A DNA stretch of 40,843 nucleotides from a virus, in IMG/VR virus record IMGVR_UViG_3300020125_000389, positions 1 through 40,843 of that record. The stretch is one strand, 5' to 3'. Of the stretch, positions 23,819 to 38,224 are shown one piece after another. How positions within the stretch are numbered: position 1 is the stretch's first letter; every line of letters starts with the position of its first letter. Under the pieces are notes generated by a model. The model saw nothing but the letters and a program-made list of their open reading frames with translations. It did no database searches and was not told the DNA's origin. Position numbers and translations under genes: made by a program.

Positions 23819-24772
23819 ATGGCGTTGTTCCTCGTTGCCGCTCCGGCGACGGAGCCGCTCACGGTGGCCGAGGTCAAGGCCCATCTCCGGCTGGACTCCA
23901 GCGACGGTGAGCCGGCGCCGACGGCGCTGACGTGTGCGCTCGCCGGCGCGGGCGCGGGGAACGTCGACAACGGCGCGCATCGGTACCTGGCCACGTTTGT
24001 CACCGCCGACGGCGAGACCGACGCCGGCGCGATCTCCGCGGCCGTCAGCGTCGCGGACAAAACGGTCAACGGAAAAGTGGTGCTGACGATTCCGGTCGGC
24101 GGCAGCGCCGTCACGACCGTGAATCTCTATCGCACCGCCGCCGGCGGGTCGACGTACCTGAAACTCGATCACGTCGTCAACGGCGTCACGACCTACACCG
24201 ACAACATCGCGGACAGCGCCCTCGGCGTGCAGGCGCCGACCACCAACACGACGGCCGATCCGCAGCTCGTCGCGTGGATCGCCGCGGCGCGGCAAACCGT
24301 CGAGACGTTCACGCATCGCGCGCTGATCACCCAGACGTGGGATCTGAAGCTCGATACCTTTCCGGACTGGTCCAGGTCCGACTCGCCCTGGGCGCCACTG
24401 GTGCTGCCGAAGCCGCCCGTGCAGTCGATCACCAGCATCAGCTACATCGACACGAATGGCGCGACACAGACGTGGACGGCGTCCCTGTATGACACCGACC
24501 TGCCGGTGGGCGACTACGCCGCGCCGGCGCGCGTCGTGCCGGCGTACCAACAGATTTACCCGGTGACGCGCGAGGTACCGAACGCGGTCACTGTGCGCTT
24601 CGTCGCCGGCTACGGTGGGGCATCGGCGGTGCCCTTTGCCCTCAAGGCGGCGATGAAGCTCCTGATCGGCAACTGGTGGATGAACCGGGAGGCGGCCGCG
24701 ATCATCCGCGCGTCGGCCGACGTGTTGCCGTTCGGCGTCGAGGCGCTGCTCTGGCCGTTCAAGGCGTTCTGA
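23819..24772 (+). CDS. gp6-like head-tail connector with inserted repeat module
   Basis: 317 residues, about twice the normal length. Residues 11-30 (TEPLTVAEVKAHLRLDSSD) are the start of the gp6-like connector fold and continue after an interruption with DPQLVAWIAAARQTVETFTH and RALITQTWDLKLDTFP at 148-181, then LPKPPVQSITSISYID. Between them (residues ~34-146) lies a ~110-residue beta-rich module ending VNLYRTAAGGSTYLKLDHV, YTDNIADSALGVQAP, which recurs in the tail hub at 32897. Connectors sit under the portal. An insertion at this place should face outward, but that is inference. Confidence 0.85.
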   Translation: MALFLVAAPATEPLTVAEVKAHLRLDSSDGEPAPTALTCALAGAGAGNVDNGAHRYLATFVTADGETDAGAISAAVSVADKTVNGKVVLTIPVGGSAVTTVNLYRTAAGGSTYLKLDHVVNGVTTYTDNIADSALGVQAPTTNTTADPQLVAWIAAARQTVETFTHRALITQTWDLKLDTFPDWSRSDSPWAPLVLPKPPVQSITSISYIDTNGATQTWTASLYDTDLPVGDYAAPARVVPAYQQIYPVTREVPNAVTVRFVAGYGGASAVPFALKAAMKLLIGNWWMNREAAAIIRASADVLPFGVEALLWPFKAF

Positions 24773-28413: not shown

Positions 28414-28617
28414 ATGGTGACGCCGCAGCAGCTCGTCGAAGGCCTGCAGCACGCCACCGAGCTCGAGCAGCGCGCGCGGGCGCATTTCGAAGCGCACAGG
28501 GAGGACCTCCCGGAGCGCGACGCATCGCTCGTCGTGCTCCGGCACGCGACGGCGCTGAAACGATCGTTCGAGCAGTGGATCGCCGCGCGCGCGTTGCGCG
28601 CGGCATTGATGAAGTAA
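28414..28617 (+). CDS. Small helical hypothetical protein
   Basis: 67 residues starting two bases after the preceding stop. Entirely helical and charged: PQQLVEGLQHATELEQRARA, HFEAHREDLPERDASLVVLR, ALKRSFEQWIAARALRAAL. Possibly a coiled-coil assembly factor. It is followed by the repeated untranslated element. Confidence 0.5.
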   Translation: MVTPQQLVEGLQHATELEQRARAHFEAHREDLPERDASLVVLRHATALKRSFEQWIAARALRAALMK

Positions 28618-28628
28618 CAGCGGATTTC

Positions 28629-28728
28629 GTTCGGAAGCTCAGAACGCCCGCCTCGCCCCGCAGCCCCGTCAGGCTGCCGCGCCTGGCCGCCGTGATGCGC
28701 CCAATGCCCATAGCGGCAGGAGGCAGAC
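28629..28728 (+). ncRNA. Repeated 5'-UTR element, copy A
   Basis: Roughly 100 bases before the gene at 28729 are closely matched by 35850-35947. Shared blocks include AGCTCAGAACGCCCGCC (28636-28652) and CGCGCCTGGCCGCCGTGATG (28678-28697), and distance to the ATG is the same to one base. Hairpin 1 is GCAGCC (28660-28665)/GGCTGC (28672-28677). Hairpin 2 is TGCC/GGCA around 28704-28717. GCCGCC at 28686-28691 can pair with GGCGGC at 28731-28736 just inside the coding sequence, which would enclose the AGGAGG ribosome-binding site (28718-28723). Probably a structured cis-regulatory leader; no known RNA class recognised. Confidence 0.6.
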
Positions 28729-29154
28729 ATGGCGGCAGGCAAGCACGGGTCAGCAGAAATCACGATCGCGTACGACGACGCCCCAGGCGGGACGCTCCGC
28801 ACCATCACAGCGTTCGTGTTGACGATGGGCGCGGTGAAGCTCGCCTCGAACATGCAGGCGAACACGCCGTTCGGCGCGACGGTCGAAGGGATGCTGCCGA
28901 CCGGCGTCAGCAAGATCGACCAGATCACCATTCACGGGTACTGGGACGACACCGCGGTCACCGGGCCGCACGTCGTCTTCATCGCGCCCGACACGTCGCC
29001 GCAGGCCTCGACGCGGACGCTGCAGATCGTGTTCGGCAACGCGAGGACGTGGACGTCCGAGGGCTACCTCGTGAGCTACGCCGTGCTCGGCAAGAACGGC
29101 AACCTGACCGAGTTCGACGCGGTGCTGCAGCAGAACTCCGGCGCCTGGTCGTAA
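28729..29154 (+). CDS. Probable tail tube (major tail) protein
   Basis: 141 residues, with AGGAGG five bases before the ATG. It is a compact beta-rich protein: GSAEITIAYDDAPGGTLRTI, GYWDDTAVTGPHVVFIAPDT, RTLQIVFGNARTWTSEGYLV and a final YAVLGKNGNLTEFDAVLQQN. This size and the position immediately upstream of the frameshifted tail chaperones are where the tube subunit is expected. The strong ribosome-binding site and long leader also fit an abundant virion protein. No sequence family is certain. Confidence 0.7.
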   Translation: MAAGKHGSAEITIAYDDAPGGTLRTITAFVLTMGAVKLASNMQANTPFGATVEGMLPTGVSKIDQITIHGYWDDTAVTGPHVVFIAPDTSPQASTRTLQIVFGNARTWTSEGYLVSYAVLGKNGNLTEFDAVLQQNSGAWS

Positions 29155-29190
29155 CCGAACCGGCGCCGCAGGGCACCAGCAGAGACACGC

Positions 29191-29229
29191 GCCGGCCGGC
29201 TGCGCACGCGCAGCTCGCCGGCCCTTTTT
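29191..29229 (+). terminator. Rho-independent terminator/attenuator after the tail tube gene
   Basis: GGCCGGC (29194-29200) pairs with GCCGGCC (29217-29223), and an inner TGCG/CGCA stem (29201-29212) with a CACG loop extends it; five T (29225-29229) follow. It stands between the tube gene and the tail chaperones, where lowering transcription after an abundant gene would make sense. Confidence 0.75.
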
Positions 29230-29245
29230 CGCCTGGAGACGTTCG

Positions 29246-29671
29246 ATGTCGATTTTCGCGAGCCAGACGCAGGACACGGTCGCGCTGCCGTTCGATCCGC
29301 CGCACACCGTCACGATTCAGAAGCTCTCGGGCAAAGACCTCGAGGCCGCGCAGTTCGTGCACATGACGGGCGTGGCGACCGGCCGCGGCCGCAACTGGGC
29401 GACGACGTTCAGGCGGCTGGCCGCCGCCGGCGTCGCGACGAATGCCGACGCGCAGAAGGTGCTCAGCGATCCGTTGAGCGGCTACGACCGGCTGACCCTC
29501 GCGAAGGCGGGCGTGAAGGCTTGGACGTACGCAGAGGAGGTGACGCCGGCGGCGATCGACGACCTCGTCGAGGAGGCGCTCGAGTTCTTCGCCACGGCCG
29601 TTCTGAAGCTGACGAAGCCGGCGCTGTTTCAGACCGACGAGGAACGAGAGGCGGCGCGAAAAAACGGCTGA
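29246..29671 (+). CDS. Tail assembly chaperone, short form (gpG-like)
   Basis: 141 residues. The fold is a small alpha/beta protein with LPFDPPHTVTIQKLSGKDLE, a central helix pair, and an acidic helix VTPAAIDDLVEEALEFFATA, typical of gpG-type chaperones (TAC_N). The frame ends at TGA 29669-29671, three codons after a slippery A AAA AAC. This form is made by ribosomes that do not shift. It coats the tape measure protein before tube polymerisation. Confidence 0.85.
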   Translation: MSIFASQTQDTVALPFDPPHTVTIQKLSGKDLEAAQFVHMTGVATGRGRNWATTFRRLAAAGVATNADAQKVLSDPLSGYDRLTLAKAGVKAWTYAEEVTPAAIDDLVEEALEFFATAVLKLTKPALFQTDEEREAARKNG

Positions 29672-29961
29672 CGCTCCTGCACCGCGCGCTCGATGGGCAG
29701 GGGCCGCAACCGTTTGAACATTTCATCGGGCGGCTCTGTGAGGAATTCCAGTGCTTGCCGTCAGAGGCGTGGGCCGAGTGGCTCCGGCTGCCGGCGGGGT
29801 TCCTCGAGCAGATCGTGGAATACCGGCGCTACGCGGACATGAAGTTCGCTGTCGACAGGGCGACGACGCCGACTGAACGCGCGCGCATCCGCGCGACGCC
29901 GATGGGCGAGCTCGCGGAACGCATCTACCTGGAACTCGCAGGCGAGGAGATCAGTGGCTGA
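29246..29961 (+). CDS. Tail assembly chaperone, -1 frameshift fusion (gpGT-like)
   Basis: Ribosomes slipping back one base on A AAA AAC (29659-29665) leave the 0 frame and read RLTLLHRALDGQGPQPFEHF onward, adding 98 residues and ending at TGA 29959-29961; the fusion is ~238 residues. The extension (GRLCEEFQCLPSEAWAEWLR, YRRYADMKFAVDRA) looks like the T domain that recruits tube subunits. There is no plausible separate start for the downstream frame, and its position between tube and tape measure is where nearly all long-tailed phages use this mechanism. The next gene overlaps the stop. Confidence 0.85.
29659..29665 (+). other. Programmed -1 frameshift site (A AAA AAC)
   Basis: The heptamer is in the correct phase: 0-frame codons read CGA AAA AAC, and slipping re-pairs both tRNAs on AAA AAA. 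The 0-frame stop follows 3 bases later. It is one of the most efficient bacterial slippery sequences. No internal Shine-Dalgarno was identified at the usual 10-14 base spacing. Confidence 0.85.
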
Positions 29962-30385
29962 CGGAATCACGATCGAAGTCGACGCGGCCGGGCTGATCGA
30001 CGCGTTCGAGTCGCTGCCGGCCACGATCCGCACGCTCACGCGCGGTGCGGCCGAAGTCACCGCGCAGAACATCGCGCGTGAGGCGCGGGCGCGTGTGCCA
30101 CGGCGCCACGGGAAGCTCACGGCCGCGCAGCAGGGCCGACCGCCACTCGAGGACCTGATCGACGTGTTGCCGATGCGGAACGGGACCGGCTACGTCGTCA
30201 TCGTCCAAGAGGTCGACCCGGAGGCGATGTTCCTGCCCTGGCAGCTGGAGTACGGCACGCAGCACATGGCCCAGCGGAAGTTCTTTTTCCCGTCGGCGCG
30301 GCTCGAGCGTGGGGCCCACGAACGCCGCATGAACGATGCGTTGTCCCAGGCGATCGAGATCGCCAGCGCGATTGGAGCGAAGTAG
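29954..30385 (+). CDS. HK97 gp10-like tail/neck protein
   Basis: 143 residues, GTG start overlapping the chaperone frame. Family hallmarks: helix LIDAFESLPATIRTLTRGAA, IAREARARVPRRHGKL (usually AxxxAPxxTG.L), and the diagnostic EYGTQHMAQRKFFFPSARLE near 95-114. In HK97-like phages this family sits before the tube gene; here it lies between chaperones and tape measure. The product may act at the tail terminator ring or the tail initiation complex. Confidence 0.85.
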   Translation: MADGITIEVDAAGLIDAFESLPATIRTLTRGAAEVTAQNIAREARARVPRRHGKLTAAQQGRPPLEDLIDVLPMRNGTGYVVIVQEVDPEAMFLPWQLEYGTQHMAQRKFFFPSARLERGAHERRMNDALSQAIEIASAIGAK

Positions 30386-32320
30386 GTGGCTGGCGATCCA
30401 CAGATGTACGTGAAGGTCGCGGCGAACATCGAGCAGCTGAAAGCCTCGATGGCCGAAGCGCGCGCCGAGATCGCCAAGGTTGGGGAATCCGGCAAGAGCA
30501 GCCTTGACGGGTTCAGCGATCGGCTCGAGCACCTGGGTGAGCGCGTCGCCGAGTACTTCGCGTTGCGCGAGGTGGCCCATTTCGTCGAAGGCCTCCTGGA
30601 GGGCGCGCACGCGCTCGAGATTCTGAGCCAGCAAACCGACATCAGCGTGGAGGAGCTGCAGGTCCTCGGCGCCGCGACCGCCGAATTCGGGATCGACACC
30701 GAAAAGCTTGGCACGCTCATCTTTCAGCTCAGTCGACGGATCGCCGGCGGCGACGAGTCCGCCGCGGCGGCGCTCCACATGATGGGCATGAGCATGGACG
30801 AGGTGAAAGGGCTCCAGGGCGAAGAGCTCTTTCTGACGATCGCGCGCGGCCTGAACACCCTCGAGGGCAACGCGCGAGATCTCGCGGCAACGGATCTCTT
30901 TGGCGGCCGCGCCGGGAAACAGGTCCTCGCCTTCTCGAAGGACGTCGACGGCGCGATGGAAGCCGTCCGCGGGTCGGTCTCGCTGGCCAGCGAGGAATCG
31001 GTGAAAAACCTCGCCGCGATGGAAGTCCAGATCACGCGGATGCAGACCAGTTTTCATAACTGGGCCACCGAGGTGCTCGGCGAAGTCGCGCAGGGGTTCA
31101 ACGTTCTCAAAGATGCGAATACGCAAGGCGCGAGCAAATGGGAAATCTTCGTCGCGATGGTGAAAGACGCGGCTGAGAGCACGCTCCCTGGCGTCGGCGC
31201 GAGCACGAGGAATCTGACCCAGCTGCTGCTCGACCACAACGTCGTGGCGAAGGACTCCGCGGACGCGACGGCGCACGCGAGCGCGGCCCACAAGGAAGCG
31301 GCCGTCGCGCTCGACGCGCACGCGCAGGCCGAGAAGTTCATGGCCGCGCTCATCCTCGACAACGCGAAACCGATCCTCGACTGGCAGCGCCAGGACCTCG
31401 ACCAGCTCCGGGAGATGGGCGCGCTGACGGCGAAGAATGCGGAAGCCATCGGCGTGAACGCCGCCCAGCTCAAAGTCTACGAACAGGGTGTGAAGGCCTC
31501 CGCCGAAGCGACGAAGCAGTGGAACGAGATCGTCGCGAAGATGGACAAGGAAACCTTCACGCTGGCGATGGAGCACGAAAAACAGTGGCGGAAGGAGCAG
31601 CAGGACCGGCTGAAGCTCACCAACGAGGCCATCCTCGCGGAGTTCGACGCGCAGCGAACACTGAACGCCGAATGGGGCCTGAATGCCGCGGGCGCGATTC
31701 AGATCCAAACGTCGGCGCTTGACGTCTTGAATCAAAAACTCACTGTGCTGCACGCGTCGAGATTGGAAGGCATCTCCCAGGAGAAGCAAGAACAAGTCCT
31801 CATGGACGAATACACGCAGGCATTGCTCGCCGAGGCGCAGGCGCAGGATGCGGAGAATGCCGCATTGGCCGCAGTGCCGCCGCTCGTGAACGCCGCCAAC
31901 TCGACGGTCAAGCAGTTCACGGGCACGCTGGCCCTGGGGATCACGAACATCGACGCGTTCAACAAGGCGCTCAGTGAGTTCTACGATCAGTTCGCCGGCA
32001 GCAACGTCGGAACGCCGGAAGTGGCGGGCGCGAACGTCCCCGTCATCCTCTCGAACGGCGGGCGGCGCACGATTCAACCCCGCGCGAGCGGCGGTCCCGT
32101 CGACGCCGGCAGCACCTACATCGTCGGTGAGCGCGGCCCCGAGACCCTGGTGATGGGGAACGCGAACGGGTTCATCGTCCCGAACGGCGCCGGCAGCGCC
32201 GGCAGCGCCGGCGCGACACAAATCATTCAACTCGTTGTTGACGGCCGCGTCCTCGCGGCGGTCGTGAACGACCACATCACGCGCACCATGCGCCAGAGCC
32301 GGCAGTTCCCGGTCTCGTAA
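30386..32320 (+). CDS. Tail tape measure protein
   Basis: 644 residues from a GTG three bases after the preceding stop codon begins. It has the composition and layout of tape measures: N-terminal MYVKVAANIEQLKASMAEAR and a long helical body with repeated Ala/Lys/Glu/Gln heptads (HEKQWRKEQQDRLKLTNEAI). Residues ~55-205 (ISVEELQVLGAATAEFGIDT, ATDLFGGRAGKQVLAF) match the prophage tail length domain. The C-terminal ASGGPVDAGSTYIVGERGPE is the usual tail signature of this family. Its length predicts a tail of about 95-100 nm if the common 0.15 nm per residue holds. No clear lysozyme or peptidase domain. Confidence 0.93.
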   Translation: MAGDPQMYVKVAANIEQLKASMAEARAEIAKVGESGKSSLDGFSDRLEHLGERVAEYFALREVAHFVEGLLEGAHALEILSQQTDISVEELQVLGAATAEFGIDTEKLGTLIFQLSRRIAGGDESAAAALHMMGMSMDEVKGLQGEELFLTIARGLNTLEGNARDLAATDLFGGRAGKQVLAFSKDVDGAMEAVRGSVSLASEESVKNLAAMEVQITRMQTSFHNWATEVLGEVAQGFNVLKDANTQGASKWEIFVAMVKDAAESTLPGVGASTRNLTQLLLDHNVVAKDSADATAHASAAHKEAAVALDAHAQAEKFMAALILDNAKPILDWQRQDLDQLREMGALTAKNAEAIGVNAAQLKVYEQGVKASAEATKQWNEIVAKMDKETFTLAMEHEKQWRKEQQDRLKLTNEAILAEFDAQRTLNAEWGLNAAGAIQIQTSALDVLNQKLTVLHASRLEGISQEKQEQVLMDEYTQALLAEAQAQDAENAALAAVPPLVNAANSTVKQFTGTLALGITNIDAFNKALSEFYDQFAGSNVGTPEVAGANVPVILSNGGRRTIQPRASGGPVDAGSTYIVGERGPETLVMGNANGFIVPNGAGSAGSAGATQIIQLVVDGRVLAAVVNDHITRTMRQSRQFPVS

Positions 32321-32333
32321 AAGGAAGATCACG

Positions 32334-32897
32334 ATGAGTCTCGGTTATCGCAAAACGCTAGTGAGTGCACAGGGCGACGGGCCGACCTTGACCGCGGCAG
32401 CGGCGGCAACGTGCCTGCCCGGCCAGGCGAAGGTGCTGATCCCGGGCGGCGCCTTCGATGCGCCCGGGAAGATGCTCCTGATCAAGGCCTCCGGCCGCAT
32501 CAGCTCGGTCATCACGACGCCGGGCACCGCGCGCTTCGACGTGCGCCTCGGCGGCACGGTGATGTTCGATAGTCTCGCGATCCTGCTCGATTCGGTCGCC
32601 GCGCACACGACCGTCGGCTGGACGCTCGACCTCCAGTTGACGATGCGCACCTCTGGAACGGCCGCGACGTTCTGGGGTCAAGGGACGTGGACGTCTGAAG
32701 ACATCCTCGGCGTACCCGCGACAGCACCCAAGGGCGTGCTCTCCGCGATCTTGCCGTGGAACTCGGCCCCGGCCGTCAGCAGCAACACCTTCGACGCGAC
32801 GGCCGCGAACACGCTCGACCTGTTCTTCACCCAGACCGTGGCGACGGGCAGCCTGACCCTGCACCAGTACATGGCCGAGATCGTCTCGTTCGAATAA
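32334..32897 (+). CDS. Distal tail structural protein candidate
   Basis: 187 residues with AAAGGAAG upstream. Beta-rich: PGKMLLIKASGRISSVITTP, GTARFDVRLGGTVMFDSLAI and TLDLQLTMRTSGTAATFWGQ. The pattern (a Gly-Arg-Ile-Ser-Ser core and trailing DLFFTQTV) occurs in phage proteins between tape measure and hub. It may form a tail-tip ring or a decoration. TAATG overlap with the hub gene. Confidence 0.7.
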   Translation: MSLGYRKTLVSAQGDGPTLTAAAAATCLPGQAKVLIPGGAFDAPGKMLLIKASGRISSVITTPGTARFDVRLGGTVMFDSLAILLDSVAAHTTVGWTLDLQLTMRTSGTAATFWGQGTWTSEDILGVPATAPKGVLSAILPWNSAPAVSSNTFDATAANTLDLFFTQTVATGSLTLHQYMAEIVSFE

Positions 32898-35824
32898 TGC
32901 CGGGCGCACCCTTCGCAGCTCCGTGGCGGAAACGCCGGCCCGCGCTGCCCGCGGTCACTCCGATCGCGCCGGCGGCCCCGGACGTACCGAGTTCGCCGAG
33001 TCCGGCGGACACAGCGACGGCGTACTACACGCTGCTGTCGTGGGTGTCAGCGCGCGCGACGAAATTCGACATCTATCTCGACACCGTCAACCCGCCCGTC
33101 ACGATCGTCGTGCCGAAATACAACACGACCTCGTACGTGCCGACGCTCGCGGCGAATACGACCTACTACTGGAAGATCGTCGCCTTCAATGATGGCGGAT
33201 CGGCCACGGGGCCGGTCTGGTCCTTCACGACGCCGGCCGCGACGGCGATCCTCTTCTCGCTGGCGGGTACGATTGTCACGTCGAACGCGCGGTTCGGCAC
33301 GCTGTCCATCTCGGATGTGCTCGGCCCGTCGCCGAACACTGGCCGCGTCCTGTTCGACACGCCTCCGACCGCGGGCGCCGCGGTCGCGATCGGCCTCGGC
33401 ACTCTTGACAAGGCCAAGTTGATCTTCGGCGGGGAAGTGCAGGCCGTCGATCAGACCTACGTGGGTACGCCGGCGGCGAGCACGCTCTATCCGGCGACGC
33501 TCATCGATTACACATTCCAGATCAACAAGCGCCGCCCTTTCGGGACATGGACGACCACCTCGGCGTCAACGATCGCGCGCTACCTCGTCGCGGTGTTCGC
33601 GCCGGGCTTCACCGCGACGCATGTGCAGGACGGCCTGCCGGCCGTGTCGATCACCTTCGACGGGTCACAGGATTTCATGACCTGTCTGCGAGCCCTCGCC
33701 GCGGCCATTAGCGACAGCACGAACACCGGCAAGACGAAAGTCGACTACGCGCAAGACGTGTGGCTCTATCTCACGTATACCGGCGAGCAGCCTGATCCGA
33801 TCGACAACGCGCATCCACCGCTCAATTTCCCGTCGCCGATTACGTTCAGCGTCGATCACTCGCAGGTTCGGACACGGTGCTACGGCAAGGGCCACGGCGA
33901 GCTGCTCCTTGCGGATGTCGGCGTGGGCGAAACGATCCTGCCGATCGCGGACGCCTCGATGTTCAACCCGGCGGGCGGACAGGCGATCGCGGGGACGATC
34001 GCGGGCGGCGCGCAGACCCAACGACTCACCTATGACGGCGTGCAGCTCGGGGGCAGTGGGTCACTGGTCGGCCCTGGCGCGTCGCCGAGCACGGCGCTAG
34101 TCGCGACGATCGCGGCCGGCACGGGGATCGACGTAGGCACGCATCAGTGGGCCTACACCGATGTCACCGCCGCCGGGGAATCGTTGCCGAGCCCGTTGGC
34201 GACGAAGGTCGTCGCGTCGACGCTGCCCACGCCGCCGAGCATGGGCGGGAACACGAACACGGCGGGCGATGTCGGCTTGGGGGTCGGCGGTTACCTCTGG
34301 GCCGTGACGCACGTCAACGCGGCCGGCGAAACCCTGCCGAGCGCGACGTGCTTTCTCGCGACCGATCAACAGGTGGCCGATCCGGCCGCGCCGACCAACG
34401 TGACGAAGGACGCCGGATTCCCGACATGGGGGGGAACCACCATCAATCTTGAATTCGCCGTGCTGTTTCGCAACAGCGATGGATCGTTGCACACTGCGAT
34501 CAGTTCAGCATTCACGATTACGCTGCACACGGGCGATCCGGGCGGCGGTCACGTCTCAGGCGCGTTTTCATCGGATTCGCGCGTCGCGTACGTGGACGTC
34601 TATCGGCGCGATCCCGCGCAGGGCGCGGCCTGGTACCACGACACACATGTCGCGTCGACCCCGAACGTGCCGGGATCGAACTACAGCATCTTGTGGAGCA
34701 TCCAGGACGGCACGTTCGTCGGGGCGGCGCCGACGTCGAATTGGGTGTTTCGCCGCCCGCAGCTCCAGTCGATTCCGATCGGCGGCGCGAGCACCACGGC
34801 GCGCAAGATCTACCGCACCGTCGTCAACGGGTCGCAGCTGAAACTCTCGTTCACGATCAACGACAACACGACGACGTCCGCCTTCGACTCGACGACCGAC
34901 GCGAACCTCGGCGCGAACGCGCCCACGTCGAACACCGCGACCACGGCGCAGGTGGCGCTCTCGGGGATTGCCGCGGGACCGGCCACGACGACGCAGCGGA
35001 AGGTCTATCGCACGGCGGCGAACGCGGCGCAATTGAAACTGTTGACGACGCTCGCGGACAACACGACGACGACGTTCACGGATTCGACCGCCGATAGCGC
35101 CCTCGGCGCGAATGCGCCCTCGAGCGACACGTCGGGGTTGCCCCAGCCGACCGGCCAGATCCTGGCCGGCTCCACGGCGATCACGACCTCGAGCGCGGCG
35201 CCCTTCGCGGCCAACGGCGGCTGGGCGATCATCGGCCAGAACGTCATTCGCTACACCGGGATCGCGACCAACACGTTGACAGGCGTGCCGGCCAGCGGCG
35301 TGGGGGCGCTCCTGACCTCGGTGGTCTCAGGCGCGCAAATCCTGGCGGCGCCGGCGCTGACGAACATCAATAGCGCCAACGGCGTCCCACTGGCGCTCGC
35401 GAAGGGCTCGAAGGTGAACATCTGGGTGCAGCGCGACGACCTGGCCGCGCAAGCGGCACTCGGCGCGCTCGAACTCGACGCCAACGGCCAGCCGACCGAC
35501 GGCATCCGCGAATACACGATCACCGACGAGCGCAGCACCGAAGCCACCATGAAGGCGCTCTGTGACGCGGACCTCGCGATCTTTAGTCGCCCGATCGTGT
35601 CCGCGGTCTATCACACGCGCGATCCAAAGTCGAAGAGCGGCCGCACCGTCTCGATCAACCTGACGAGCGGCGGCACGACCTGGGCCCGCAGCGGCGACTT
35701 CACCATTCAGCACGTCGAGCTTTCCTTCGATGGGCCGGCGCTGAATCCGCGGTATGCCGTAACGGCGACGTCCGTCGCGTTCACGTTGAGCGATTTACTG
35801 CGCCACGTGGCGCTGACGGGCTGA
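32897..35824 (+). CDS. Tail hub/tip protein with FnIII and repeat modules
   Basis: 975 residues. Residues ~30-115 form an FnIII-like domain (YYTLLSWVSARATKFDIYLD ... NTTYYWKIVAFNDGG). Residues ~115-370 fit a hub or gp27-like domain (TLYPATLIDYTFQINKRRPF, SITFDGSQDFMTCLRALAAA). The middle (~405-740) holds beta modules: GTHQWAYTDVTAAGESLPSP and GGYLWAVTHVNAAGETLPSA, then two tandem copies of a 'K-x-YRT ... LKL ... DNTTT ... LGANAP' repeat starting near 637 and 701. The C-terminus (~840-975: VNIWVQRDDLAAQAALGALE, FTIQHVELSFDGPALNPRYA) returns to hub structure. The modules look inserted between hub halves and likely face the host surface. Confidence 0.85.
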   Translation: MPGAPFAAPWRKRRPALPAVTPIAPAAPDVPSSPSPADTATAYYTLLSWVSARATKFDIYLDTVNPPVTIVVPKYNTTSYVPTLAANTTYYWKIVAFNDGGSATGPVWSFTTPAATAILFSLAGTIVTSNARFGTLSISDVLGPSPNTGRVLFDTPPTAGAAVAIGLGTLDKAKLIFGGEVQAVDQTYVGTPAASTLYPATLIDYTFQINKRRPFGTWTTTSASTIARYLVAVFAPGFTATHVQDGLPAVSITFDGSQDFMTCLRALAAAISDSTNTGKTKVDYAQDVWLYLTYTGEQPDPIDNAHPPLNFPSPITFSVDHSQVRTRCYGKGHGELLLADVGVGETILPIADASMFNPAGGQAIAGTIAGGAQTQRLTYDGVQLGGSGSLVGPGASPSTALVATIAAGTGIDVGTHQWAYTDVTAAGESLPSPLATKVVASTLPTPPSMGGNTNTAGDVGLGVGGYLWAVTHVNAAGETLPSATCFLATDQQVADPAAPTNVTKDAGFPTWGGTTINLEFAVLFRNSDGSLHTAISSAFTITLHTGDPGGGHVSGAFSSDSRVAYVDVYRRDPAQGAAWYHDTHVASTPNVPGSNYSILWSIQDGTFVGAAPTSNWVFRRPQLQSIPIGGASTTARKIYRTVVNGSQLKLSFTINDNTTTSAFDSTTDANLGANAPTSNTATTAQVALSGIAAGPATTTQRKVYRTAANAAQLKLLTTLADNTTTTFTDSTADSALGANAPSSDTSGLPQPTGQILAGSTAITTSSAAPFAANGGWAIIGQNVIRYTGIATNTLTGVPASGVGALLTSVVSGAQILAAPALTNINSANGVPLALAKGSKVNIWVQRDDLAAQAALGALELDANGQPTDGIREYTITDERSTEATMKALCDADLAIFSRPIVSAVYHTRDPKSKSGRTVSINLTSGGTTWARSGDFTIQHVELSFDGPALNPRYAVTATSVAFTLSDLLRHVALTG

Positions 35825-35849
35825 AGAAGGCTTCGAAGTAATCCGATCC

Positions 35850-35947
35850 GTTCGTAGCTCAGAACGCCCGCCGCGCCCCACAGCCTCGAACCGCTGTCGC
35901 GCCTGGCCGCCGTGATGGCTCAGTGCCCAGACGGGCAGGAGACTGAC
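35850..35947 (+). ncRNA. Repeated 5'-UTR element, copy B
   Basis: Second copy of the element at 28629-28728, about 75-80% identical by eye. Hairpin 1 is ACAGC (35880-35884)/GCTGT (35893-35897); its closing pair is A-T where copy A has G-C, with the rest of the stem kept, so the pairing covaries. Hairpin 2 is TGCCC/GGGCA around 35922-35936. GCCGCC at 35906-35911 can pair with GGCGGC at 35950-35955 over the start codon. AGGAG at 35937-35941 is the ribosome-binding site. An ATG inside it (35915) is in frame but is not conserved in phase in copy A, so it is probably not the start. Confidence 0.6.
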
Positions 35948-36469
35948 ATGGCGGCGCCGACGATCACCCGCACGGCTATCACCGGCACGACGCCCTACGG
36001 ACGCGAGATCGCCGCGGCCGCGGCGGCGCACCAGCTCTCGCCGGAGCTGCTCGAGGCGCAGGTCGTCGTCGAGTCCAGCGGCCACGCGGACGCCTTTCGG
36101 TTCGAGCCCGGGATCCTCGCGCAGCTGCAGGCTGGCCAACTAAAGCCGAAGCGCCTGCCCGCGAATCCCGTCGACCGCCGCATCGCCTCGAGCTACGGAC
36201 TGCTGCAGATCCTGTACGTCACCGCATGCGACTACGGCTTCGCCGGCGAGCCCGAAGAACTCTTCGTGCCGGCCATCGGCCTCGACTACGGCGCTCGACA
36301 CCTCGCGACGTTGCTCGCCTGGGCGCACGGCGATTACGCGCAGGCCTTCGCGGTCTACAACGGCGGACACGGCGGCAATGGGTCGCCGCCGTTTCGGAAC
36401 CAGGCGTATGCGGACCGCGTGTTCGCTGCGCGCGATCACCTCGGAGCGGGTCATGACGATCGATCGTGA
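35948..36469 (+). CDS. Lytic transglycosylase (SLT-type), probable endolysin
   Basis: 173 residues. Slt/goose-lysozyme-like pattern: PELLEAQVVVESSGHADAFR with catalytic Glu42, then IASSYGLLQILYVTACDYGF (the GLLQI/GLMQI motif), LDYGARHLATLLAWAHGDYA and FAVYNGGHGG. It cleaves peptidoglycan between MurNAc and GlcNAc. There is no signal peptide, so a holin is needed, which the next gene may supply. As the first gene after the tail hub and behind a dedicated leader, it could also be a virion-associated lysin; endolysin is favoured by the following holin-like gene. Confidence 0.85.
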   Translation: MAAPTITRTAITGTTPYGREIAAAAAAHQLSPELLEAQVVVESSGHADAFRFEPGILAQLQAGQLKPKRLPANPVDRRIASSYGLLQILYVTACDYGFAGEPEELFVPAIGLDYGARHLATLLAWAHGDYAQAFAVYNGGHGGNGSPPFRNQAYADRVFAARDHLGAGHDDRS

Positions 36470-36918: not shown

Positions 36919-37718
36919 GATTTGTCACGAAAGCCGTGTGGGCCGTCCTGGTGCTCGCGATCGCGGCGCCGACCCACGCGCAAGACGCCGTCGACCTGTC
37001 CTCGTGCGTCCAGACGCCCGGCGGCGTCGACGCCTGGGCGCGCACGGCGACCATCACCCACCTCGAGCTCTCGAGCGCCGGGTTTCACATCGACTTCGAC
37101 AAGCAGGCGAGCTGGCCCGACGTCACGCCGCCTGGATGGGACGGGCCGATCCGGTGGACGGTCTGGCTCGGCGCGCAGGTCGACGGGCGCTGCCACCTCG
37201 CGGCGAGCCTCAACGTCTGGAACCGCTCCGACAGCTACGGCGGGCCGGTCGACGAGGCCTGGCACTGGCCAAAGGATCTCTGGTACCTCGACCACGCGCT
37301 GCAGGCGCACACGCCGGCCGCCGGCGAGACGGTCTACCTGATGGTGACAGCCGGCGCCGAGCGCGGCCTCTCTGCGTTCAAGGTCGCCGAGCGGTCGCAG
37401 CTGATCGCGATTCCGTTCGGCGCCGGCTCGTGGTCGTTCACGCCGTCGCTGCCGCCGGCGCCGCCGCCTGTCGTGATACCGCCCGTGGTATCGCCGCCGC
37501 CTCCCGTCGTCGTCCCGCCGGTTGTCCCGCCCGCGCCGCTGCCGAGCGTCATCACGTGTCCTGACACGTCATTACTCGAGGCCAAGGTCGACGCGGTGGG
37601 AAAGGACGTCCGCGAGCTGCGCGCCGAAGTCGAGTCCGCCTGGAAGCAGTACGTGATGCCCGCGCTCAAGTACGGCGCCGCGATCGCCGCCGGCTTCATC
37701 GCGAAGGGGAAGCTGTGA
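36915..37718 (+). CDS. Exported protein with Pro-rich stalk and C-terminal helix
   Basis: 267 residues. A Sec signal peptide (MRFVTKAVWAVLVLAIAAPTHAQ; cleavage after AHA or AQ) leads a ~155-residue globular domain with paired Cys (SCVQTPGG, GRCHLAASLN) and many Trp (WDGPIRWTVWLGAQ, WHWPKDLWYLDHAL). Then a Pro/Val-rich stalk (residues ~175-215) and a C-terminal coiled coil (LEAKVDAVGKDVRELRAEVE) ending in a weak hydrophobic segment (YGAAIAAGFIAKGKL). It could span the periplasm like a spanin, but no lipobox is present. Function not established. Confidence 0.65.
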   Translation: MRFVTKAVWAVLVLAIAAPTHAQDAVDLSSCVQTPGGVDAWARTATITHLELSSAGFHIDFDKQASWPDVTPPGWDGPIRWTVWLGAQVDGRCHLAASLNVWNRSDSYGGPVDEAWHWPKDLWYLDHALQAHTPAAGETVYLMVTAGAERGLSAFKVAERSQLIAIPFGAGSWSFTPSLPPAPPPVVIPPVVSPPPPVVVPPVVPPAPLPSVITCPDTSLLEAKVDAVGKDVRELRAEVESAWKQYVMPALKYGAAIAAGFIAKGKL

Positions 37719-38224
37719 AGGCGCTCGCGATTGTCTTCCTGCTGCTCGTCCCGACGGTCGCTCATGCGCAGGCGACGCGGTTCGATCCGAATTTGGCGCT
37801 GCCGACGCTCGCTGAGCGCCACGCCGCCGACATCGCGAGCTGGGCGACGGTGACGACGTCGATCGCGCTCGATGCCGTGAGCACGTGGACGACGCACTGC
37901 GAGGCCACGTGGGACGAGTGTGAAGGCGCGCTCGTCAACGCGGGCCTTCGTGTCGGGGTCACGTTCGGCGCCGCGCAGCTCGTCAAGGTCGTCGCGCATC
38001 GAGTGCGACCGTGCGCGCCGGCGTGCGGCATCGATGCGCCGGACACCAGCTTCTACTCGCTGCACACCGCGTTCGCCGCGGAGGCGATCGGTGGGCCGCG
38101 GCTCGCGATCGCGCTGCCGCTGGCGATCGGCACGGGCGGGCTCCGGATCGCGGCCGGCAAGCACTACCTCACCGACACGATCGTCGGCGCCCTGGCCGGC
38201 GCACTCGCGGGGCGCATCCGATGA
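37715..38224 (+). CDS. Exported PAP2-family phosphatase
   Basis: 169 residues with a signal peptide (MKALAIVFLLLVPTVAHA). The PAP2 triad motifs are complete: K91-x6-R98-P99 (KVVAHRVRP), the YSLH loop with S115 and H117 (PSGH equivalent), and R144-x5-H150-x3-D154 (RIAAGKHYLTD). PAP2 enzymes dephosphorylate lipid pyrophosphates such as undecaprenyl-PP or phosphatidylglycerol phosphate at the periplasmic membrane face. Hydrophobic stretches at ~80-90 and 128-142 suggest membrane attachment. Finding it in a phage lysis cassette is unusual; a role in envelope modification is inferred. GTGA-coupled upstream. Confidence 0.85.
   Translation: MKALAIVFLLLVPTVAHAQATRFDPNLALPTLAERHAADIASWATVTTSIALDAVSTWTTHCEATWDECEGALVNAGLRVGVTFGAAQLVKVVAHRVRPCAPACGIDAPDTSFYSLHTAFAAEAIGGPRLAIALPLAIGTGGLRIAAGKHYLTDTIVGALAGALAGRIR

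Follow-up and report, generated by a model that had tools for sequence, protein, structure and literature searches.

A duplicated leader before two late phage genes, with a predicted fold that closes the translation start

Some phage genes carry leaders that restrain their own translation. In the relevant part of PMC3014915, the T4 genes e (lysozyme), soc, 49 and I-TevI are described as having self-inhibiting leaders, in which a helix takes in the Shine-Dalgarno sequence and/or the AUG. For gene e the same part of that source reports that the helix silences the longer early transcripts, that the 5' strand of this helix contains a late promoter, leaving the late mRNA without that strand, and that the leader is present in only some of the T4 relatives. 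Repeated sequences tied to translation starts are described, in the pertinent part of PMC3203893, for cluster K mycobacteriophages, where the SAS/ESAS elements stand at the starts of different genes; the ESAS are imperfect 17-bp inverted repeats with a variable spacer, lie upstream and are found at several genes of a genome, Anaya having 16 repeat halves.

The stretch of DNA analysed here (the window), a virus record 40,843 bases long, carries late tailed-phage genes (terminase, portal, major head, tape measure) on its plus strand. A preliminary description had proposed that an untranslated leader is duplicated almost end to end in front of two late genes. This was confirmed by BLASTN against the window and the other loci collected, which aligned 28628-28736 with 35849-35955 (83.5% over 109 nt, E 3.2e-26). 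Both leaders, A and B (Table 1), lead into ATGGCGGC at the start codon, and in copy B this sequence precedes a protein unrelated to the tail-tube protein that follows copy A. One frame stays open throughout A; in B it does so too, once past a stop at the 5' edge, and only there does it match the reading frame of the downstream gene. The claim that the copies have no coding capacity in a common phase holds, because 1-nt indels put A, B and a third copy (in contig L013, see below) mutually out of phase. A conserved protein-coding stretch was rejected as an explanation, since the indels and the stop at the 5' edge of B leave no open frame common to all copies.

Table 1. Positions in the window of the two leaders, their parts and the adjoining genes
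Feature	Position	Strand	Remarks
Short ORF, 67 aa	28414..28617	+	directly 5' of leader A; relatives in L013, L139, L141, L147, L152, perhaps L153
Leader A	28618..28728	+	111-nt gap from short-ORF stop to tail-tube start codon; alignment with B begins at 28628
Block GAACGCCCGCC, copy A	28642..28652	+	identical in A, B and L013; outside the modelled stems
Hairpin 1 (P1), copy A	28660..28677	+	GCAGCC/GGCTGC
P2 5' strand GCCGCCGTG, copy A	28686..28694	+	putative partner of the start codon
Hairpin 2, copy A	28705..28718	+	directly 5' of Shine-Dalgarno sequence; inner pair C x C
Shine-Dalgarno-like AGGAGG, tail-tube gene	28718..28723	+	
P2 3' strand CATGGCGGC, copy A	28728..28736	+	start codon within
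Probable tail-tube protein, 141 aa	28729..29154	+	ATG at 28729; predicted fold resembles those of tube proteins, lambda gpV among them
Leader B	35825..35947	+	123-nt gap from long-tail-protein stop to transglycosylase start; alignment with A begins at 35849
Block GAACGCCCGCC, copy B	35862..35872	+	same block as in A
Hairpin 1 (P1), copy B	35880..35897	+	ACAGC/GCTGT, double change relative to A
P2 5' strand, copy B	35906..35914	+	
Hairpin 2, copy B	35924..35937	+	TGCCC/GGGCA
Shine-Dalgarno-like AGGAG, transglycosylase gene	35937..35941	+	
P2 3' strand, copy B	35947..35955	+	start codon within
Probable SLT lytic transglycosylase, 173 aa	35948..36469	+	ATG at 35948; PF01464, 7.1e-8; N-terminal extension apparently missing in three relatives

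The identities proposed for the two downstream genes were borne out. The product of the gene after leader A is, to judge from its predicted fold, a tail-tube protein: the best of five structure models (pLDDT 85.0, the five spanning 85.0 to 45.6) was matched by Foldseek to tube proteins, for example lambda gpV (7t2e, 3.2e-5, TM 0.65, 11% identity), and comparison of the protein with Pfam and PHROG gave 0 matches. The gene after leader B probably encodes an SLT transglycosylase, as indicated by the family match to PF01464 (7.1e-8). Its N-terminal extension is absent in L010, L011 and L012, if the nearest ATG is taken as their start. Upstream, leader B adjoins the gene for a long tail protein, and leader A a short ORF, which had 0 matches in Pfam (window copy); this ORF belongs to a family of 66-76 aa that lies between two tail genes in some relatives and is missing from others. 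Two further features of the neighbourhood were noted. An ORF 3' of the transglycosylase gene (37715-38224) matches PAP2 phosphatase (PF01569, 1.1e-7), and diverged repeats at 24170-24258 and 34770-35135, common to two virion-region genes and present in L013 too, look like a repeated protein domain.

The third copy stands 5' of the orthologous tail-tube gene in L013 (tail-tube proteins 90% identical), with 76% identity to A over 109 nt (BLASTN, E 9.7e-14). When the gap from the nearest upstream likely stop to the ATG was compared over 21 tail-tube loci (the window and 20 of its 21 relatives' loci, L016 being left out as its contig begins 104 bases upstream), it amounted to 111 nt in the window, 105 in L013 and 96 in L153, and to 9-34 nt in the other 18. 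The short ORF is present and the leader absent in L139, L141, L147 and L152 (ORF identity 42-57%). The leader of about 100 nt is thus an insert between the stop codon and the Shine-Dalgarno sequence. At the position corresponding to B, L013 has no leader copy, and a GH108 lysozyme gene directly follows that of the long tail protein. The lysozyme (L013:16734-17246) combines GH108 with a peptidoglycan-binding domain, and its counterpart in the window (35948-36469) is the SLT transglycosylase. As leader B is absent from L013, where another lysozyme is found, B would belong to the insertion or replacement that brought the transglycosylase gene into the window's lineage. We infer that the tail-tube leader is the older copy and that leader, Shine-Dalgarno sequence, start codon and first two codons were copied as one piece before the incoming transglycosylase gene, in which case the N-terminal extension of the transglycosylase is to be expected. 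A GAAGTAA upstream of both A and B was considered as a clue to the direction of copying, and alone was not significant (0.129).

A covariance model (R1) was built from the three copies and used to search 25 whole viral records, 23 of them besides those of the window and L013. Building a model and searching with it had been suggested as a check. A, B and the L013 copy were recovered at 9.2e-16 or better, and nothing else in these records scored better than 0.01. That the element was found in only two phages, with 18 of the 21 tail-tube loci having no leader and R1 finding no other copy, would suit the view that the tail-tube start region was dragged by chance in front of the transglycosylase gene and is a recombination relic with no regulatory role. 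We regard this as improbable, as long identical non-coding blocks still persist in the paralogues (83.5%) and in the orthologue (76%), and the insert is kept in both lineages. Taking into account the duplication, the third copy in L013, the position between stop codon and Shine-Dalgarno sequence and the absence of a common coding frame, the assignment as a cis-acting leader is well supported by the sequences.

Three pairings had been put forward for the leader RNA. In hairpin 1 the compensatory change, a closing G-C in A against A-T in B, is present in the sequences; pairing is kept through G-C to A-U in B and C-G to U-A in L013, the sixth pair is lost in B, and the loop differs from that of A in four of seven columns in B and in five of seven, one of them a gap, in L013. 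Hairpin 2, said to be kept, is not identical in the two copies, its inner pair being C x C in A, and a hairpin directly 5' of AGGAG was found in A, B and L013. (A short GCCCGC/GCGGGC hairpin lies directly 5' of AGGAGG at the tail-tube start of L151, at L151:9964-10000, with no long leader.) The third pairing, P2, is possible as described: GCCGCCGTG can pair with CATGGCGGC in both copies, and GCCGCCG pairs with UGGCGGC of the start region in A, B and L013, the last without the two inner pairs of A and B.

Folding of the leader alone gave structures that were not more stable than those of shuffled sequences (z 0.02 and 0.19), and with flanks and start region included z was -1.74 and -1.42. Over the three copies, 20 pairs were formed in 91.7% of cells with double changes at two pairs; in slid controls 25-57% of cells were paired and there were zero double changes, the structure itself having been drawn on these sequences. 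Covariation above chance, the other support sought for the stems, was not reached: 62 of 500 shuffles were as high as the two observed double changes, with three sequences giving little power, and the core of P2 is uninformative in this respect because it is invariant. Paired columns carried fewer substitutions than unpaired ones, the counts being 4/40 and 14/63 between A and B, 6/40 and 24/64 between A and L013, and 7/40 and 29/63 between B and L013, a comparison biased by the drawing of the structure on the same sequences.

The best fold of A is a long interrupted stem of 22 pairs that includes the start codon. The late mRNAs of phage T7 are processed by RNase III into separate mRNAs, and a long imperfect hairpin, as a target of an RNase III-like enzyme or as a shield of the 5' end, could likewise provide separate mRNAs for the two genes. 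This stem, together with the location of the repeated, structured element between cistrons on the same strand, is compatible with such a role in processing or stability. We consider this role improbable, however, because the stem is bulged and unlike between the copies, and cleavage of a stem containing the start codon would need to leave the Shine-Dalgarno sequence intact.

The preliminary description had the P2 pairing enclose the ribosome-binding site, and this gains support from opening energies, defined as the cost, in the predicted fold, of unpairing positions -16 to +8 within -60 to +35. The values were 24.3 kcal/mol for A, 21.5 for B, 21.0 for L013 and 20.6 for L153, as against 8.9-14.7 for all 19 homologous tail-tube starts without the leader and 4.4-17.6 (mean 11.9) for 23 further starts in the window that were chosen by hand from its ORFs, some of them uncertain. 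When only the upstream part was shuffled, the observed closure was reached in 11 (A), 11 (B), one (L013) and none (L153) of 300 shuffles. Equal or tighter closure was seen at arbitrary positions in the same sequences, namely at 8/988 for A, 42/988 for B, 49/654 for L013 and 31/653 for L153. Among 82 called starts, which include B and L153, none exceeded A or B, two exceeded L013 and three L153, B being in each set; as the gene caller behind these was crude and its minus-strand calls doubtful, weight was put on the controls with 19 relatives and 23 starts. The start of L143, without the long leader, exceeds most of its own shuffles (3/100), yet reaches only 13.8 kcal/mol. It is a sound statement that the leader starts are, in predicted closure, on a par with the tightest 1-8% of arbitrary sequence, and that the starts without leader in the 19 and 23 sets are predicted to be less closed. 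Being related, A, B and L013 make up a single observation of this, and L153 makes a second. In all four leader cases the ribosome-binding site and the start codon are thus predicted to be buried. This prediction also bears on the suggestion that hairpin 2, as a standby site or by presenting the adjoining Shine-Dalgarno sequence, promotes initiation and boosts translation. The hairpin that adjoins AGGAG on its 5' side in A, B and L013 would agree with it, as would a similar one recognised by eye in L151, which has no long leader, but with the whole region including the start codon predicted closed in the four leader cases such a booster is very improbable.

The second observation, L153, encodes a tail-tube protein that is 39% identical and has a 96-nt gap with a strongly closing predicted fold (z -2.74, 3 of 200 shuffles as good), whose minimum-energy and centroid structures differ in detail. 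By eye, TTGTGA/TCACAA next to the AUG, GCC/GGC after the AUG and CGCCG/CGGCG 5' of the Shine-Dalgarno sequence can be recognised. The R1 score of this leader is 8 bits, below those of matches in L152 (14.5, and 11.3 on the other strand) and L139 (10.9, other strand); the 14.5-bit match lies upstream of the tail-tube gene, largely within the short ORF. An ORF of about the same size occupies the short-ORF site of L153 and is 23% identical in the multiple alignment, pairwise BLASTP finding no relation between the two; with the L153 tail-tube protein as query, only the protein itself was returned. The L153 leader is a look-alike at the same site, of undemonstrated homology, and may be unrelated.

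If the element acted as DNA, it would be a late promoter or a binding site of a phage or host regulator, copied to give the transglycosylase gene a promoter of its own, and the RNA pairing would be a by-product of GC-rich sequence. Such a regulatory site is a serious rival to the RNA leader, although we think it clearly less likely. Apart from the start region, no invariant stretch is longer than GAACGCCCGCC; it takes no part in the modelled stems, which leaves room for a DNA site, and its only exact matches in the window are those in A and B; within two mismatches it is rarer than in shuffles (38 vs 52.7, window). Hairpin 1 could equally be a DNA dyad, and comparable closure occurs at 0.8 to 7.5% of arbitrary positions. 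On the other hand, the duplicated element takes in the Shine-Dalgarno sequence and the start codon, and the four leader starts are more closed than all others in the 19-relative and 23-start sets. A search of both leader regions for sigma-70-like promoters, the only type covered, found none. No terminator-like or promoter-like site was found at the leader regions, and a sigma-54-like reading made by eye in A was dropped, its spacing not being kept in B and L013. Of two other invariant blocks, CTGGCCGCCG with up to one mismatch occurs in the window more often than expected from shuffles (25 vs 12.6, reached by 0/100 shuffles), on either strand and outside the leaders too, and GGGCAGGAG is as frequent as expected (10 vs 10.7).

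Database searches agreed with the initial impression that no known RNA family is represented. Rfam 15 had 0 matches in the window at the gathering score; around A five sub-threshold matches were obtained at E up to 10, and for leaders B, L013 and L153 there were 0 at E up to 1. The best match around A, Hammerhead_II (20.4 bits, cut-off 37, E 0.06), spans 28553-28623, nearly all of it inside the short ORF that precedes the leader. In a DNA comparison with 50,697 phage records leader A had one match at E 0.3 and B, L013 and L153 had none; the tail-tube protein found no match in the same collection, and scans of a genome collection revealed no relative of it. Exact-pattern scans of viral contigs gave no new copy among the matches listed and returned the known L013 contig once (as L159). 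BLASTN of the three leaders against the 120 stretches listed by one of these scans showed no true new copy among the matches listed; that of L064 (6e-5) was rejected, as it falls inside an ORF of another contig. None of 21 pattern matches in the genome collection reached E 0.1 with R1 (best 0.12, L172). Nor did R1 find anything at E 1e-4 when 398 genomes from a single phylum were searched, a negative of little weight, the phylum having been picked only for a chance match and the filters being stricter. No title or abstract among the literature matches listed describes this leader.

The reading we favour, tentatively and at somewhat less than even confidence, is that of a self-closing untranslated leader of two late genes, which keeps the genes silent on read-through mRNA and opens when a transcript starts locally or the RNA is cleaved. 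The 3' half of the leader would fold onto the start region, GCCGCC pairing with GGCGGC after the AUG, and with a hairpin directly 5' of the Shine-Dalgarno sequence, itself in or beside paired stretches, ribosome binding would be blocked. On long transcripts reading through from upstream the gene would be silent or weakly expressed, and it would be translated only if the 5' strand of the lock were missing or opened. Most simply, opening would come about by a late transcript starting inside the leader, or by an RNase cut, as in T4 gene e, and the copied leader would bring the incoming transglycosylase gene under the control of the tail-tube gene. No sigma-70-like promoter that would directly support this proposed opening step was seen in either region. 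Translational coupling is unlikely to open the lock, since 68 nt in A and 81 nt in B separate the upstream stop from the 5' strand of P2. Tail-tube protein is made in bulk, so a lock at its gene would need efficient opening.

For the cis-regulatory RNA of the preliminary description this means that the cis-acting leader stands, whereas its RNA nature is plausible but unproven, given that 62/500 shuffles match its covariation and R1 found no copies beyond the three in the 25 viral records. Of the functions it had suggested, timing is the better half, boosting being opposite to the predicted fold, and a lock is more likely than a booster. A bolder version of the self-closing leader, to which we give little credence, is that the whole of it, start codon included, was duplicated to time an acquired cell-wall enzyme with a tail gene, that a similar lock, with no sequence similarity that could be detected, arose or survived at the corresponding site of the distant relative L153, and that the conserved unpaired block and hairpin 1 form the sensing or opening part. 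If the self-closing leader is real, phages could transfer a translational switch, ready-made and start codon included, from one gene to another, an incoming lysis-type gene would gain safe timing at once, and the T4 lysozyme principle would extend to phages without close records in the searched phage collection. The leader would be a small, testable switch.

Morons are late-region insertions with their own regulation. As with these, a gene is present here in one phage and not in its relative, and has arrived with its own upstream stretch; unlike in morons, this stretch was apparently copied from a resident gene, and no terminator-like or promoter-like site was found in it. With the SAS/ESAS, as far as the part of their description cited above goes, the leader shares the association of a repeated sequence with the starts of different genes. 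It was not assigned to them, since there are two copies in the window and one in L013, and the 17-bp inverted-repeat build is absent; unlike ESAS, the two copies here are about 100 nt long, include the start codon and have stems of 5-9 pairs. The T4 gene e leader, in the features given by the source cited, is similar in that its helix includes the Shine-Dalgarno sequence and/or the AUG, which here is a matter of prediction, and it has a late promoter; in our phage the promoter search, which covered sigma-70-like sites, found none of these. The parallel would be one of logic, and no relation in sequence is claimed. Unlike that of gene e, the leader described here is duplicated and serves a virion gene as well as a cell-wall enzyme gene.
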